Assembly: GCA_030750975.1 (NCBI GenBank)
Contig: JASMHC010000010.1
Location: forward strand, 1-64,000
Source: Paracoccaceae bacterium
GTDB lineage: Bacteria; Pseudomonadota; Alphaproteobacteria; Rhodobacterales; Rhodobacteraceae
Length of the DNA: 64,000 bases
Direction: 5' to 3'
The position numbers and the translations under genes are program-made. The notes beneath the pieces are model-generated. The model saw only the letters and a list, made by a program, of their open reading frames with translations. It was not told the DNA's origin and made no database searches. Positions 2,370-6,396 of the stretch are shown here, one piece after another (the stretch's first letter is position 1; the number at the start of each line of letters is the position of its first letter).

Positions 2370-3194
2370 ATGCTGGACGCGGCCCCGACCAAAGAGACCG
2401 TTTTGGAGGTCAACAATATCGAGGTGATCTACAACCACGTGATCCTCGTACTGAAAGGTGTCAGCCTGTCTGTCCCCAAAGGCGGTATCACCGCATTGTT
2501 GGGGGGCAACGGCGCGGGCAAGACGACCACGCTCAAGGCCATTTCCAACCTTCTGCATTCCGAACGCGGCGAAGTGACAAAAGGGTCCATCGAATATCGC
2601 GGTGAAAGCGTGCAGAACAGCGATCCGGCCCATCTGGTGCAAAAGGGTGTGATCCAGGTGATGGAAGGCCGTCACTGTTTCGAACACCTGACCGTGGAAG
2701 AAAACCTTATGACCGGGGCCTATACCCGCAAAGACGGCAAAGGGGCGATCGAGGCCGATCTTGAAATGGTCTACAATTATTTCCCGCGCTTAAAAGAGCG
2801 CCGAAAAAGCCAGGCGGGCTATACCTCGGGCGGCGAACAGCAGATGACGGCAATTGGCCGCGCATTGATGTCCAAACCCGAAACCATCCTGCTGGACGAA
2901 CCATCCATGGGGCTGGCCCCGCAGCTGGTCGAACAGATTTTCGAGATCGTCAGATCGCTGAACGAAGAGCAGGGTTATACCTTCCTGCTGGCCGAACAGA
3001 ACACCAATGTGGCGCTGCGCTATGCCCATTACGGATACATTCTGGAAAGCGGACGCATCGTGATGGATGGCCCCGCAGCCGAGCTGCGCGAGAACCCGGA
3101 TGTCAAGGAATTCTATCTGGGCATGTCGGATGAAGGGCGCAAATCCTTCCGCGACGTGCGCAGCTATCGCCGCCGCAAACGCTGGCTGGCGTAA
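2370..3194 (+). CDS. livF: Branched-chain-type ABC transporter ATP-binding protein LivF
   Basis: Cytoplasmic ATPase that powers the importer. Seen in the protein: Walker A GGNGAGKTTT (~residues 45-54), signature SGGEQQMTAIGRALM (preceded by T rather than the usual L), Walker B ILLDEPSMGLAP, and an H-loop-equivalent region with LLAEQNTNVALRYA. The length (274 aa) is slightly above typical LivF because of a basic C-terminal tail (YRRRKRWLA). The start follows AGGAAAGACC. It is the third gene of the transporter operon and its stop overlaps the next start as TAATG. Assignment to LivF rather than LivG rests on size and on the GLAP...VEQIFEIV region. Confidence 0.92.
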   Translation: MLDAAPTKETVLEVNNIEVIYNHVILVLKGVSLSVPKGGITALLGGNGAGKTTTLKAISNLLHSERGEVTKGSIEYRGESVQNSDPAHLVQKGVIQVMEGRHCFEHLTVEENLMTGAYTRKDGKGAIEADLEMVYNYFPRLKERRKSQAGYTSGGEQQMTAIGRALMSKPETILLDEPSMGLAPQLVEQIFEIVRSLNEEQGYTFLLAEQNTNVALRYAHYGYILESGRIVMDGPAAELRENPDVKEFYLGMSDEGRKSFRDVRSYRRRKRWLA

Positions 3195-3508
3195 TGAGGT
3201 CGGGCGAACCCAAAGTCGCCTGCCGAACCCCGACGCCTGGTCGAAAGGGTGTCACGAACATACCGCAATGGCGGTTCGACATGATCCGTGGGGCAATCAT
3301 CGATGTGATGGCCACGGGAGAGGTGAAATTTGCCGAGTTGCCCGATCTGGTGCGGGACCGGCTTGGCGACGAGGATACAAGGCGGCTCGGCTCGATCAGC
3401 TGGAACGTCACAACGGTGAAACTGGAAATGGAAACACGCGGCGAGATTATACGGCAGACGGGCAAAGGCCCCCAGCGCCTGGTGCTGGCGGGAAAGGTTC
3501 AGTCTTGA
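3194..3508 (+). CDS. Small hypothetical protein, putative winged-helix, coupled to livF
   Basis: A 104-aa protein whose ATG overlaps the livF stop (TAATG), indicating translational coupling. From about residue 30 it reads like a compact helix-turn-helix/wing module: IRGAIIDVMATGEVKFAEL, a second helix PDLVRDRLG, then TVKLEMETRGEIIR and a basic end. This resembles small winged-helix proteins of the DUF6958 type, but I cannot confirm the family. An internal start at 3281 (Met30) would give just that module. It converges with the next gene, overlapping it by 10 bp. Possible roles are local regulation or an accessory of the transporter; neither is shown. Confidence 0.6.
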   Translation: MRSGEPKVACRTPTPGRKGVTNIPQWRFDMIRGAIIDVMATGEVKFAELPDLVRDRLGDEDTRRLGSISWNVTTVKLEMETRGEIIRQTGKGPQRLVLAGKVQS

Positions 3509-4353
3509 CCTTTCATCGCGGCAATAAGCTCGGCTCGCAGTTCGGCAATCCGCTCGAGCGCCTCTTCGCGGGTGTTGCGGATGTTCGGGCGGAAATCCTG
3601 ACTTTCCGAACGCATGCGGATTTCCTCTTCGGTTTCCGATCCCGGCGCATAACGCACCGACCCGAGCGAGGCCGCGATGTTCAGTTTCTTGCCCCGATGG
3701 GCGTATTGAACCCAGGCCTCGGGCATGATCTGACAATTCTCGAGATTGACCAGAAAGAACCACTTTCTGTCAGTGGCCCTGATCCGCGTTTCAACATGGT
3801 CGTAGACATCGTTGACATCCCGGCTGTGGTGAAAAGTGAAATCGCTGAAATCGACATCCATGATCACAAGGTCATGGTCAAAACTGATCCTGCGGGCAAT
3901 TTCCTCTTCCGAATGGCTGGAAACCTTGGTGCTTTTGCGCACCCGTTTGCTGGGAAGGGATTTCAGCCGCTCAAGCGCATCGTCGCGGTTGGAAAACAGG
4001 TTGGGATCAAAGGCTTCGGTATTGGCCGCGCGTTCGATCTGACGGCGGGTTTCCTCAGAAGCGTCAAACCGCACCGAGCCTTGGGAGAACGCCATGTTCA
4101 GATCACGCCCGCGGCGGGCATAGGCGATCCAGGCGCTGCTGTCGATGCGAGTGCCGCACAGGTTGACCAGAAAGAACCATTTGTTTTCGCCCGTAGCGGT
4201 GATGCGTTCCTCAAGCCGGTCATAAAAGGCATTCACAATTGCCGAATTGGCAAAATTGAAGTCCGAAAAATCGGCCTCCATGATCTCAAGCGCGTCATGG
4301 AAAGAGATACGAGCATCAAGGACGCTTTGCGTAATCTGATCGGTTTCGGTCAT
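3499..4353 (-). CDS. Uncharacterised protein made of two tandem ~117-residue repeats
   Basis: A 284-aa soluble protein of unknown function. The ATG at 4353 is chosen over upstream starts because it follows AGAGG at a proper distance and the preceding residues are cysteine-rich nonsense. Residues ~16-132 and ~156-272 are clear copies of each other, with shared blocks IM..DFSDF.F, KWFFLVNL, AW..YA.RG..LN.A.S.GSVR, and R..ALER at the end; I estimate 45-50% identity by eye. The linker (133-155) is basic and serine-rich. No signal peptide, membrane helix or known catalytic motif is visible. It is transcribed against its neighbours. Confidence 0.7.
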   Translation of the reverse strand: MTETDQITQSVLDARISFHDALEIMEADFSDFNFANSAIVNAFYDRLEERITATGENKWFFLVNLCGTRIDSSAWIAYARRGRDLNMAFSQGSVRFDASEETRRQIERAANTEAFDPNLFSNRDDALERLKSLPSKRVRKSTKVSSHSEEEIARRISFDHDLVIMDVDFSDFTFHHSRDVNDVYDHVETRIRATDRKWFFLVNLENCQIMPEAWVQYAHRGKKLNIAASLGSVRYAPGSETEEEIRMRSESQDFRPNIRNTREEALERIAELRAELIAAMKGQD

Positions 4354-4493
4354 GGGCGGACAAACCTCTACAAGGCAATTACAAAAACAGTACACAAATG
4401 CATACATTCGCATACTGATAATGCGGCAAGCCGTTCGGCCAATCAATTGGTCAAGCTGTCGCGGCGTCAATTGCGCGTTCAGGGAGTACCGGT

Positions 4494-5714
4494 ATGAGCA
4501 TTTTTTTCGACAATCTGGAAACCCGAAGCGCCGATGCGCGCAGTGCGGATATCGCCAAAGCCCTGCCGTCCCAGATTGCCCGTGCGCAAGGGATCGCTGG
4601 CTATGCGGATAGTCTGAAAGATGTGGATCCGGCGGATATTTCGACAGCCGCCGATCTGGCCGCCCTGCCGGTGCTGCGCAAATCCGAGATCGGCAAATCG
4701 CAAGCCGAAAACGCGCCGCTTGGCGGGTTCGTTACGCGGGCCGTGTCGGGCTTTGCCCACATATTCCAATCCCCCGGTCCGATCTACGAACCGGGGGGCG
4801 CGGATCACGACTGGTGGCGGATGGGGCGGTTTCTGCATGCATGTGGCATCGGGCAGGGGGACATTGTGCAAAACTGCTTTGGCTATCACCTGACCCCGGC
4901 CGGCATGATCTTTGAAAACGGGGCCCGCGCCGTGGGGGCGTCGGTTCTGCCTGCCGGTGTCGGCCAGACCGAGCTTCAGGCCCGCGCGGCCTATGATGTG
5001 GGCAGCACCGCCTATGCCGGCACGCCGGATTATTTGAAGGTGATCCTTGATAAGGCCGACGAAATGGGGCTGGAACTTGCCATCACCAAGGCCGCCGTTG
5101 GCGGTGGCGCGCTGTTCCCGTCGCTCCGTCAGGACTATGCCGACAGGGGCATCACCTGCCTGCAAAGCTATGCCACCGCCGATCTGGGCAGCATCGCCTA
5201 TGAAAGCCCCGCGATGGAGGGCATGATCGTCGACGAAGGCGTTCTGGTCGAGATTGTCCGCCCCGGCACCGGTGATCCGGTGGCCCCGGGCGAGGTCGGT
5301 GAAGTGGTTGTCACGACCTTCAACCCCGACTACCCGCTGATCCGCTTTGCCACCGGCGATCTGAGCGCCGTGATGGCGGGGCAAAGCCCCTGTGGCCGCA
5401 CCAATATGCGGATCAAGGGCTGGATGGGCCGCGCAGACCAGACCACCAAGATCAAGGGCATGTTTGTCCGCCCCGAACAGGTGGCGGCCCTGGTTGCCCG
5501 GCATGACGAGATTTCCAAGGCGCGGGTGATTGCCGGTCGCGATGGCGAAATGGACACGATGACCGTTCAGATCGAAGCCGAGGGCGGACGGCCCGACGCC
5601 TATGCGGGCAGCATCGCGGATGTGCTGAAGCTGAAAGGCAAGATCGAGGTCGTCGCCATCGGCAGCCTGCCCAATGACGGCAAGGTTATAGATGACCAGC
5701 GGGTGTATGATTGA
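4494..5714 (+). CDS. PaaK-like acyl-CoA ligase family protein with non-canonical P-loop
   Basis: A 406-aa relative of phenylacetate-CoA ligase (adenylate-forming family). Conserved parts seen: DLAALPVLRKSEI near the N-terminus, QNCFGYHLTPAG and the GQTE motif in the centre, YPLIRFATGDLS, the WMGRADQTTKIKGMFVRPEQV C-terminal domain entry, and a C-terminal lysine in NDGKVIDDQR. In place of the usual SSGTTGKPT phosphate-binding loop it has QSPGPIYEPGG (residues 92-102). It lies in the same direction as, and probably functions with, the Liv-type transporter, suggesting CoA activation of an imported carboxylate. Whether it is catalytically active with the altered loop is unclear. The start follows AGGGAGTACCGGT. 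Confidence 0.82.
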   Translation: MSIFFDNLETRSADARSADIAKALPSQIARAQGIAGYADSLKDVDPADISTAADLAALPVLRKSEIGKSQAENAPLGGFVTRAVSGFAHIFQSPGPIYEPGGADHDWWRMGRFLHACGIGQGDIVQNCFGYHLTPAGMIFENGARAVGASVLPAGVGQTELQARAAYDVGSTAYAGTPDYLKVILDKADEMGLELAITKAAVGGGALFPSLRQDYADRGITCLQSYATADLGSIAYESPAMEGMIVDEGVLVEIVRPGTGDPVAPGEVGEVVVTTFNPDYPLIRFATGDLSAVMAGQSPCGRTNMRIKGWMGRADQTTKIKGMFVRPEQVAALVARHDEISKARVIAGRDGEMDTMTVQIEAEGGRPDAYAGSIADVLKLKGKIEVVAIGSLPNDGKVIDDQRVYD

Positions 5715-5752: not shown

Positions 5753-6340
5753 CTATAACGAATGGTTTTTCATGATGAAAATGTCGTGCTCAATGCGCCA
5801 TTGAAAATTGTGTGCCCTTGCCCAATCCACAAGAAAATCGATTGAAGGATACGAGCCGTCGTTTTCTTCGGCCGGATAAAAACAACGAACGTCATCAATC
5901 AATACGACGACCTTTTCGAAATTTGCTAAGTTCGTTTCAATCGCCATGAGTTCATCTTCGACAGGGCATTCTTTTTGCCCCTTAAACGTGACCCCTGCCG
6001 AGTAGTGACCGTCCAGCCAGAAGTTTACGTCTCCGTTTAGTCGCGGGAGGAGATCTTTTAAGGCGTTTTCACTGACATCATTAATTAGTTCAACATTTGC
6101 GTTGGCGAATTTTCTTTGAGCTTTGGCAAAAAGTGAGGGTTCAGGTTCGATGCTGTAAACAAACTTGTAGTTGGCTGCCAAAAATTCTGTTGTGGTGCCC
6201 CGAAATGTTCCGGTCTCAACCCACTGTGCGCCTTCGATTCCGTACCGTTTAAATACATTTTCCTTAACTATTTGTGGGCTGTTGTCCAAATAATTACGCC
6301 GTTTCCACGCTCTTAGTTGGCTGATTTCTTTAATAAGCAT
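5753..6340 (-). CDS. Putative SAM-dependent methyltransferase-like protein, AT-rich
   Basis: A 195-aa protein beginning at the ATG at 6340, after GGAAACGCGA; a TTG four codons upstream is less likely. Residues WVETGTFRGTT followed by VYSIEPEPSLFAKAQRKF resemble motif I and the post-I acidic loop of class I Rossmann methyltransferases (an ExGT..G nucleotide-binding turn, then an acidic residue after a beta-strand). DVNFWLDGHYSAG and VVLIDDVRCF are further motifs seen in the FkbM/TylF-like groups that act on sugars or lipids. Base composition is markedly AT-richer than both neighbours, which suggests horizontal acquisition. The substrate is unknown. It stands alone, convergent with the ligase gene and just downstream of the SRP RNA gene on the same strand. 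Confidence 0.65.
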   Translation of the reverse strand: MLIKEISQLRAWKRRNYLDNSPQIVKENVFKRYGIEGAQWVETGTFRGTTTEFLAANYKFVYSIEPEPSLFAKAQRKFANANVELINDVSENALKDLLPRLNGDVNFWLDGHYSAGVTFKGQKECPVEDELMAIETNLANFEKVVVLIDDVRCFYPAEENDGSYPSIDFLVDWARAHNFQWRIEHDIFIMKNHSL

Positions 6341-6396
6341 TCGCGTTTCCAAATGGTAAAGAGAAATTGAAAATCTAATACTTCTTTAAGTATAGG

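Follow-up and report, generated by a model that had tools for sequence, protein, structure and literature searches.

ANL enzymes are textbook two-step catalysts in which the phosphate loop is taken as a defining feature, and those of the PaaK type make thioesters. In PaaK1, as set out in a passage of a review (PMC8388817), the phosphates of ATP are bound by Ser94, Thr96 and Thr97 together with the backbone amides of the loop. For firefly luciferase, sections of a study of engineered variants (PMC8631863) describe K529 as essential for adenylation, a mutation of K443 as suppressing the second half-reaction, and S440 as a hinge position that was altered to disfavour the adenylation conformation; the same sections report mutants between which the half-reactions are split, a Donor and an Acceptor, that work when paired.

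The window, a 64,000 nucleotide stretch of the genome of a Paracoccaceae bacterium, contains at positions 4494-5714 of the forward strand an uninterrupted open reading frame, intact in frame and starting with ATG, that encodes a PaaK-like protein of 406 amino acids (calculated mass 42.8 kDa, pI 4.85). For comparison, a 'paaK' protein of Roseobacter litoralis is listed at 44.68 kDa in a portion of PMC4103551. The top relatives in the PDB are PaaK-type ligases (4r1l at 1.1e-33, 2y4o at 6.5e-27 and 2y27 at 7.8e-27), and the profile models that match the protein do so below their cut-offs: the PaaK model NF041878 at 2.6e-44 and 151.5 bits (curated cut-off 700), the PaaK model TIGR02155 at 110.8 bits (curated cut-off 646.3) and the Pfam AMP-binding family at 21.3 bits (cut-off 29.9). 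In the relevant passage of PMC13186573, PaaK homologues are chosen by Pfam domains, under whose gathering score the window protein falls.

An AlphaFold model (50 sequences; pLDDT 85.8) matches PaaK-type structures in both the N-terminal and the C-terminal ANL domains. The best-fitting part superposes on 4r1l_A with a VIA-align Z of 32.6 and an rmsd of 2.3 A over 310 residues, and full-length alignments reveal a large inter-domain shift with an rmsd of about 10 (for 4rvo_D, 9.9 over 382 aligned residues). The C-terminal domain is present, with the last modelled strand at residues 399-401 and the full-length alignments with PaaK-type chains extending to 403-405. The fold comparison also returned the ANL-fold structures 3hgu, 3hgv and 3l2k (346-352 residues, Z 19.7-20.0), which we take to be EhpF of phenazine biosynthesis. 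EhpF is not known to have a C-terminal domain and presumably retains adenylation; by contrast, the PaaK-like protein possesses this domain and has lost adenylation elements. The 2-hydroxyisobutyryl-CoA ligase HCL (6hdw, 6hdx, 6he0 and 6he2) likewise has a PaaK-type fold (Z 31.2-31.5, 22-23% identity), but its loop reads TSGTTGRP where the PaaK-like protein has SPGPIYEP. With PaaK1 and PaaK2 of Burkholderia cenocepacia (2y27, 2y4n, 2y4o) and with BT_0428 (4r1l) the protein has in common the fold, the domain order and the ribose residues of A7 and A8, whereas the phosphate loop, A5, the hinge-adjacent residue 316 and residue 319 of A8 differ, and the A10 lysine is not fixed across its branch.

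The altered A3 phosphate loop spans F91-A103 (FQSPGPIYEPGGA; 4764-4802, forward strand). In a gap-free alignment, S93-P94-G95-P96-I97-Y98-E99-P100 stands for the SSGTTGKP of PaaK1 and PaaK2, such that a protein of PaaK fold is without the A3 loop by which PaaK is recognised. The phosphate-binding Ser94, Thr96 and Thr97 of PaaK1 are represented by Pro94, Pro96 and Ile97, and proline has no amide hydrogen. The loop was compared across 181 non-redundant orthologues, merged from 204 at 90% identity, from which a second subfamily (described below), sequences shorter than 340 amino acids, those with an identical core and those with no more than 42% identity to the window protein had been dropped. 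S93, P94 and G95 were each found in 181/181, P96 in 178, I97 in 177 and Glu or Asp at position 99 in 180; serine or threonine occurred at position 96 in a single orthologue and at positions 94 and 97 in none. By contrast, all 21 ordinary PaaK relatives (20 fetched from the matches of the same searches and a copy on contig C1 of the same genome) have SSGT, with S94 and T96 in all 21 and T97 in 20. Taken together, the invariant S-P-G of the orthologues and the SSGT of their ordinary relatives indicate that the change to an SPGPI loop is fixed and old. The loci from named genomes, of which the best 80 of 595 were used, were found with scan patterns drawn from A7 and A8. In these 80 the conservation of A7 and A8 is therefore partly a product of the selection, whereas that of the loop, which supplied no pattern, is not; the genome searches in the family, class and phylum samples relied on whole-protein scores.

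The replacement of SSGTTGKP had been reported in a preliminary description, which allowed that the loop might vary among orthologues through simple degeneration, or that a normal P-loop might be recovered after frame correction. The replacement is upheld by the alignment, degeneration is not borne out by the conservation of the loop, and no normal P-loop emerges, the frame being open throughout. Pairwise omega was 0.03-0.17 in 22 orthologue pairs, indicating purifying selection, and no internal stops were found in the 52 orthologue loci examined. Single in-frame stops flagged in seven genomes were in every case outside the aligned gene, and all seven genomes have the SPGPI loop. A frame error or a degenerate gene is ruled out by the open frame, the conservation of the loop in 181/181 orthologues and the low omega.

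The same description held that all other PaaK landmarks were present, which does not apply to A5, to residue 316 or, across the branch, to the A10 lysine. A5 (YATADLG, residues 226-232; 5169-5189, forward strand) follows the pattern Y[AG]TA[DE] in most orthologues, whereas the 21 ordinary relatives read YG[LS][SL]E; the Ser or Leu of the latter has become an invariant Ala229 (181/181), and the Glu has mostly become Asp (D230 in 167, E230 in 14). Elements of the nucleotide site are retained as in PaaK, these being the ribose residues Asp289 of A7 (TGD, 287-289; 5352-5360, forward strand) and Arg313 of the A8 hinge and loop (GRADQTTKIKG, 312-322; 5427-5459, forward strand), both found in 181/181 orthologues. 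Gly312, Asp315, Gln316 and Lys319 of A8 are also each present in 181/181, although residue 316 is Asp, and residue 319 Ile or Val, in all 21 ordinary relatives. When the A8 motif of luciferase is aligned with this short motif, Lys319 presumably corresponds to K443 and Gln316 to S440. A family-specific His132 (4887-4889, forward strand), found in 181/181 orthologues and replaced by Gly in 15 of the 21 ordinary relatives, belongs with Pro135, Ala229, Gln316 and Lys319 to a set of positions that are changed yet invariant in the branch (181/181); ordinary relatives have Gly, Ser, Ala or Pro at 132, Thr or Val at 135 and Ser or Leu at 229. Further invariant positions are Q162 and E237 (181/181), with N127 in 180/181.

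The A10 region (LPNDGKVI, 392-399; 5667-5690, forward strand) behaves differently. Its catalytic lysine is present in 21/21 ordinary PaaK relatives, as it is (Lys397) in the window protein, but position 397 is basic in only 119/181 orthologues, with 43 basic only at position 394, 17 at neither and two unresolved. In a FastTree phylogeny computed with the A10 end omitted, in which 70 of 191 inner branches are weakly supported and for which the program warned of the long branches L228 and L049, the state of this lysine changes 27 times, at least 16 of these changes being forced by well-supported branches. Loss of the lysine need not entail loss of constraint, as the pair L111 and L113, both without it, has an omega of 0.069. 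Hence elements of adenylation are lost or relaxed in the branch while the A8 lysine and the ribose site stay, the window protein itself keeping Lys397.

Orthologues are present in 142 of the 198 genomes of a family sample (E of 1e-40 or better), and at 1e-115 or better in 83 of 289 class-sample and 43 of 299 phylum-sample genomes, two samples that overlap and both include the genome of the window; 12 of the 43 phylum-sample orthologues are outside the class. Ordinary PaaK proteins come next in the ranking, at only 1e-50 (the limit used) to 1e-63. Genome G277, with the gene in two contig-end pieces (2.9e-82), was excluded from these counts. Plasmid copies of 44-79% identity are found in Roseovarius, Azospirillum, Methylibium, Xanthobacter, Paracoccus, Aminobacter and others, and the five inspected all have SPGPI or SPGPV in the loop. 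The genome sampling covered the Pseudomonadota, with plasmid records as the material from beyond them, and within this phylum the P-loop-less PaaK branch is real, conserved and widespread. The public records of the plasmid genes, orthologues and second subfamily alike, are labelled 'AMP-binding protein', 'putative phenylacetate-CoA ligase' or 'phenylacetate--CoA ligase family protein', labels in which the missing loop goes unmentioned, and the portions of the open-licence literature that were searched describe no PaaK branch devoid of the P-loop.

A second subfamily, about 35% identical, keeps an SPGPI-type loop in the five sequences read, none of which has the A10 motif or a complete A8. One member is encoded on a Sulfitobacter plasmid (L188, 7703-8899), with an SPGPI loop, no A10 and an altered A8, and in this one record the gene sits in a cluster of acyl-CoA dehydrogenase, thiolase and CaiB genes. 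Another, in locus L049, follows a livF and lies ahead of carboxylase genes.

In the window, the PaaK-like gene is preceded on the same strand by components of a HAAT (Liv-type) importer: a livM permease gene with its 5' end cut by the contig start (3-941; Pfam BPD_transp_2, 4.7e-33), a gene for a substrate-binding protein (1011-2297; Pfam Peripla_BP_6, 1.6e-36) and a gene for a livF ATPase (2370-3194; NCBIfam LivF model, 3.6e-60 and 203.4 bits, below the cut-off of 441). The preliminary description had placed the gene among these neighbours; they are indeed upstream and in the same orientation, but livF is 1.3 kb away, a gap that holds two further genes. The first encodes a small DUF6958 protein (3194-3508, forward strand; Pfam PF22278, 1.2e-18), overlaps the end of livF and occurs in the same interval between livF and the PaaK-like gene in loci L040, L041, L042 and L108. 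The second, antiparallel (3499-4470, reverse strand), encodes a 323 amino acid protein of two similar halves (ISFHDALEIMEADFSDFNF... and ISFDHDLVIMDVDFSDFTF...) for which no Pfam family scored above its cut-off; 12 of 76 named loci (drawn from the best 80 of 595) contain a relative of this protein. Beyond the PaaK-like gene, a gene on the reverse strand (5753-6352) encodes a 199 amino acid protein with a weak match to Methyltransf_24 (0.0068).

Linkage to the importer is frequent without being universal. Among 137 loci of at least 9,000 bases, comprising 76 of the 80 named loci, 15 of 16 hand-picked from the same family (mostly the most divergent), 40 picked from the class and phylum samples (mostly one per family) and six from plasmids (one of them of the second subfamily), with L046-L049 outside the count, 124 have livF upstream, on the same strand and within 2.5 kb. 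The breakdown is 75/76 for named loci (from the best 80 of 595), 12/15 for the same family, 33/40 for other families and 4/6 for plasmids, and the expectation that the gene would always adjoin HAAT genes thus describes the majority but fails in 13 loci. The gap to livF is below 100 bases in 43/75 named loci (again from the best 80 of 595) and 25/33 other-family loci, and at least 300 bases in 23/75 and 4/33 respectively, the 1.3 kb of the window being of the latter kind. Across the 198 genomes of the family sample, the PaaK-like gene is present in 118 of the 120 with the binding protein and in 24 of the 78 without it; the two that have the binding protein and not the PaaK-like gene, G033 and G142, are 74% and 84% complete.

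The usual gene order is synthetase, livG, livH, livM, binding protein, livF and PaaK-like gene, with an alternative in other families that runs livG, synthetase, livH and onwards. The operon therefore normally holds its own full-length canonical acyl-CoA synthetase, whose SGTT loop was found in all 76 tblastn hits covering the site (73 with SGTT[GS]xPK and three with SGTTG[KR]SK), the other nine of 85 hits beginning behind it. In the genome of the window the corresponding loop is TSGTTGKPKG, and searches turned up one related synthetase, one related livH, one related binding protein and one PaaK-like orthologue, with two copies of livM. These copies, 72.5% identical, are located at the end of contig C13, after a synthetase, livG and livH, and at the start of the window contig. 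The arrangement would be accounted for if livM were duplicated in tandem and the assembly broken between the copies, but two copies were seen in none of the 110 loci that gave a livM match, and a join of the two contigs is accordingly not claimed. The preliminary description had envisaged a unit of uptake plus activation: the tie to a HAAT transporter is supported, but as the unit normally has its own canonical synthetase, the PaaK-like protein is probably not the only enzyme in it that activates acids.

We tentatively propose, with a probability of roughly 0.4, that the PaaK-like branch has given up ATP-dependent adenylation and acts as a product-side partner of the operon synthetase and the HAAT importer. 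The proposal draws on the residues that the branch appears to have lost or relaxed, which serve the first half-reaction, on those of the nucleotide site and second half-reaction that it appears to have fixed, and on the canonical synthetase in the operon. The importer would bring a carboxylic acid into the cell, where the operon synthetase would use ATP to form the acyl-adenylate and acyl-CoA. Through the ribose site retained in A7/A8, the PaaK-like protein might then bind ligands that contain AMP. It might either catalyse the half-reaction that forms the thioester (acyl-AMP + CoA to acyl-CoA + AMP), perhaps in the opposite direction, or report the acyl-AMP/acyl-CoA state to the system; from these residues and neighbours we infer the nucleotide binding, the lack of adenylation and any contact with the synthetase. 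The earlier suggestion of a CoA-ester binding or sensing protein is compatible with the data, though a product-side half-reaction would fit them equally well.

Several observations weigh against this product-side role. The window protein and the majority of orthologues retain Lys397, which an active ligase would require; of the 62 other orthologues, 43 have a basic residue three positions earlier that might take its place. Lys319 proves nothing, as PaaK enzymes make thioesters although ordinary PaaK relatives are without a lysine at this position (21/21), and the match to luciferase is a short motif. A separate enzyme for the second half-reaction has no obvious need, given that the partner synthetase should perform both halves, and the second subfamily keeps the loop with A8 incomplete and no A10 motif. 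The FlimPIA system provides a parallel in which the Acceptor luciferase has its adenylation lysine replaced and its A8 lysine kept, beside an adenylating partner; however, these are man-made point mutants, a P-loop change being unmentioned in the sections that describe them, whereas the PaaK-like branch is natural and its loop rebuilt, and the resemblance is one of principle only. By that analogy, a natural split ANL system may be imagined in which the synthetase serves as donor of acyl-adenylate and the PaaK-like protein carries out, or gates, no more than the thioester half, coupled to HAAT import in many Pseudomonadota families, but we consider this specific form of the proposal unlikely.

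The protein could alternatively still function as an ATP-dependent acyl-CoA ligase whose phosphate site has been remodelled and which activates the imported acid; an SPGPI loop of different geometry would then be combined with binding of the triphosphate by Mg2+, E99, H132, K319 and K397. The PaaK fold and the kept A7 and Arg of A8 would agree with this, as would the A10 lysine that most members retain and the ligase genes known to lie beside importers in aromatic acid catabolism. Nevertheless, almost no orthologue retains any of the three loop side chains that bind phosphate, A5 residue 229 is Ala in 181/181, the A10 lysine switches freely and a canonical synthetase is already in the operon, making such a ligase rather unlikely; the altered adenylation mechanism of the preliminary description is weakened by the same loss of phosphate-binding side chains and switching of the A10 lysine. 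The lost catalytic elements and the tight genetic linkage to livF and the synthetase might instead suggest a non-catalytic pseudoenzyme that is kept for protein contacts, serving the synthetase or the transporter ATPases as an allosteric subunit or a scaffold. This is more doubtful still, as residues of the pocket and nucleotide site (H132, Q162, E237, D289, R313, K319 and N127) are among the most invariant, which would be unexpected for a pure scaffold, and livF is not upstream in 13 of 137 loci.

It is improbable that the branch has become a new enzyme of acyl-CoA esters, for instance a transferase, isomerase or hydrolase, employing the invariant His132, Glu99 and Lys319. The invariant set H132, P135, A229, Q316 and K319, absent from ordinary relatives, would suit such a change, as would the acyl-CoA dehydrogenase, carboxylase or B12 mutase genes that adjoin some loci. 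Isovaleryl-CoA dehydrogenase and carboxyltransferase genes are found in four long loci (L045, L049, L184 and L199), and a B12 acyl-CoA mutase in L187, L189 and, 28% identical, L092. On Xanthobacter pXAUT01 (L187, 5370-10218) and a Roseovarius plasmid (L189, 853-13221), the PaaK-like gene is near genes for a B12-dependent acyl-CoA mutase, its small subunit and a chaperone. The best solved match of these two mutases is 2-hydroxyisobutyryl-CoA mutase (2.3e-105 for Xanthobacter and 1.5e-112 for Roseovarius), with methylmalonyl-CoA mutase so close behind that no substrate is claimed; the sections of a paper on the 2-hydroxyisobutyrate pathway (PMC13188929) contain nothing on the PaaK-like gene. Such catabolic neighbours occur in few loci and differ among themselves, and the sequence indicates no single chemistry. 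Finally, a decaying PaaK copy, as the disappearance of the most familiar motif might suggest, is barely conceivable when the loop and many other positions are invariant across families and classes, omega is low, the examined loci are free of internal stops and the flagged stops are outside the aligned gene.

The branch therefore represents a large group of ANL proteins that is strongly selected although none of the orthologues examined has kept the phosphate loop. As public records name these proteins as AMP-binding proteins or phenylacetate-CoA ligases, pathway predictions that rest on such names need care. Were the two half-reactions divided between two natural proteins, as the product-side reading would have it, this division would be directly testable with one purified pair.
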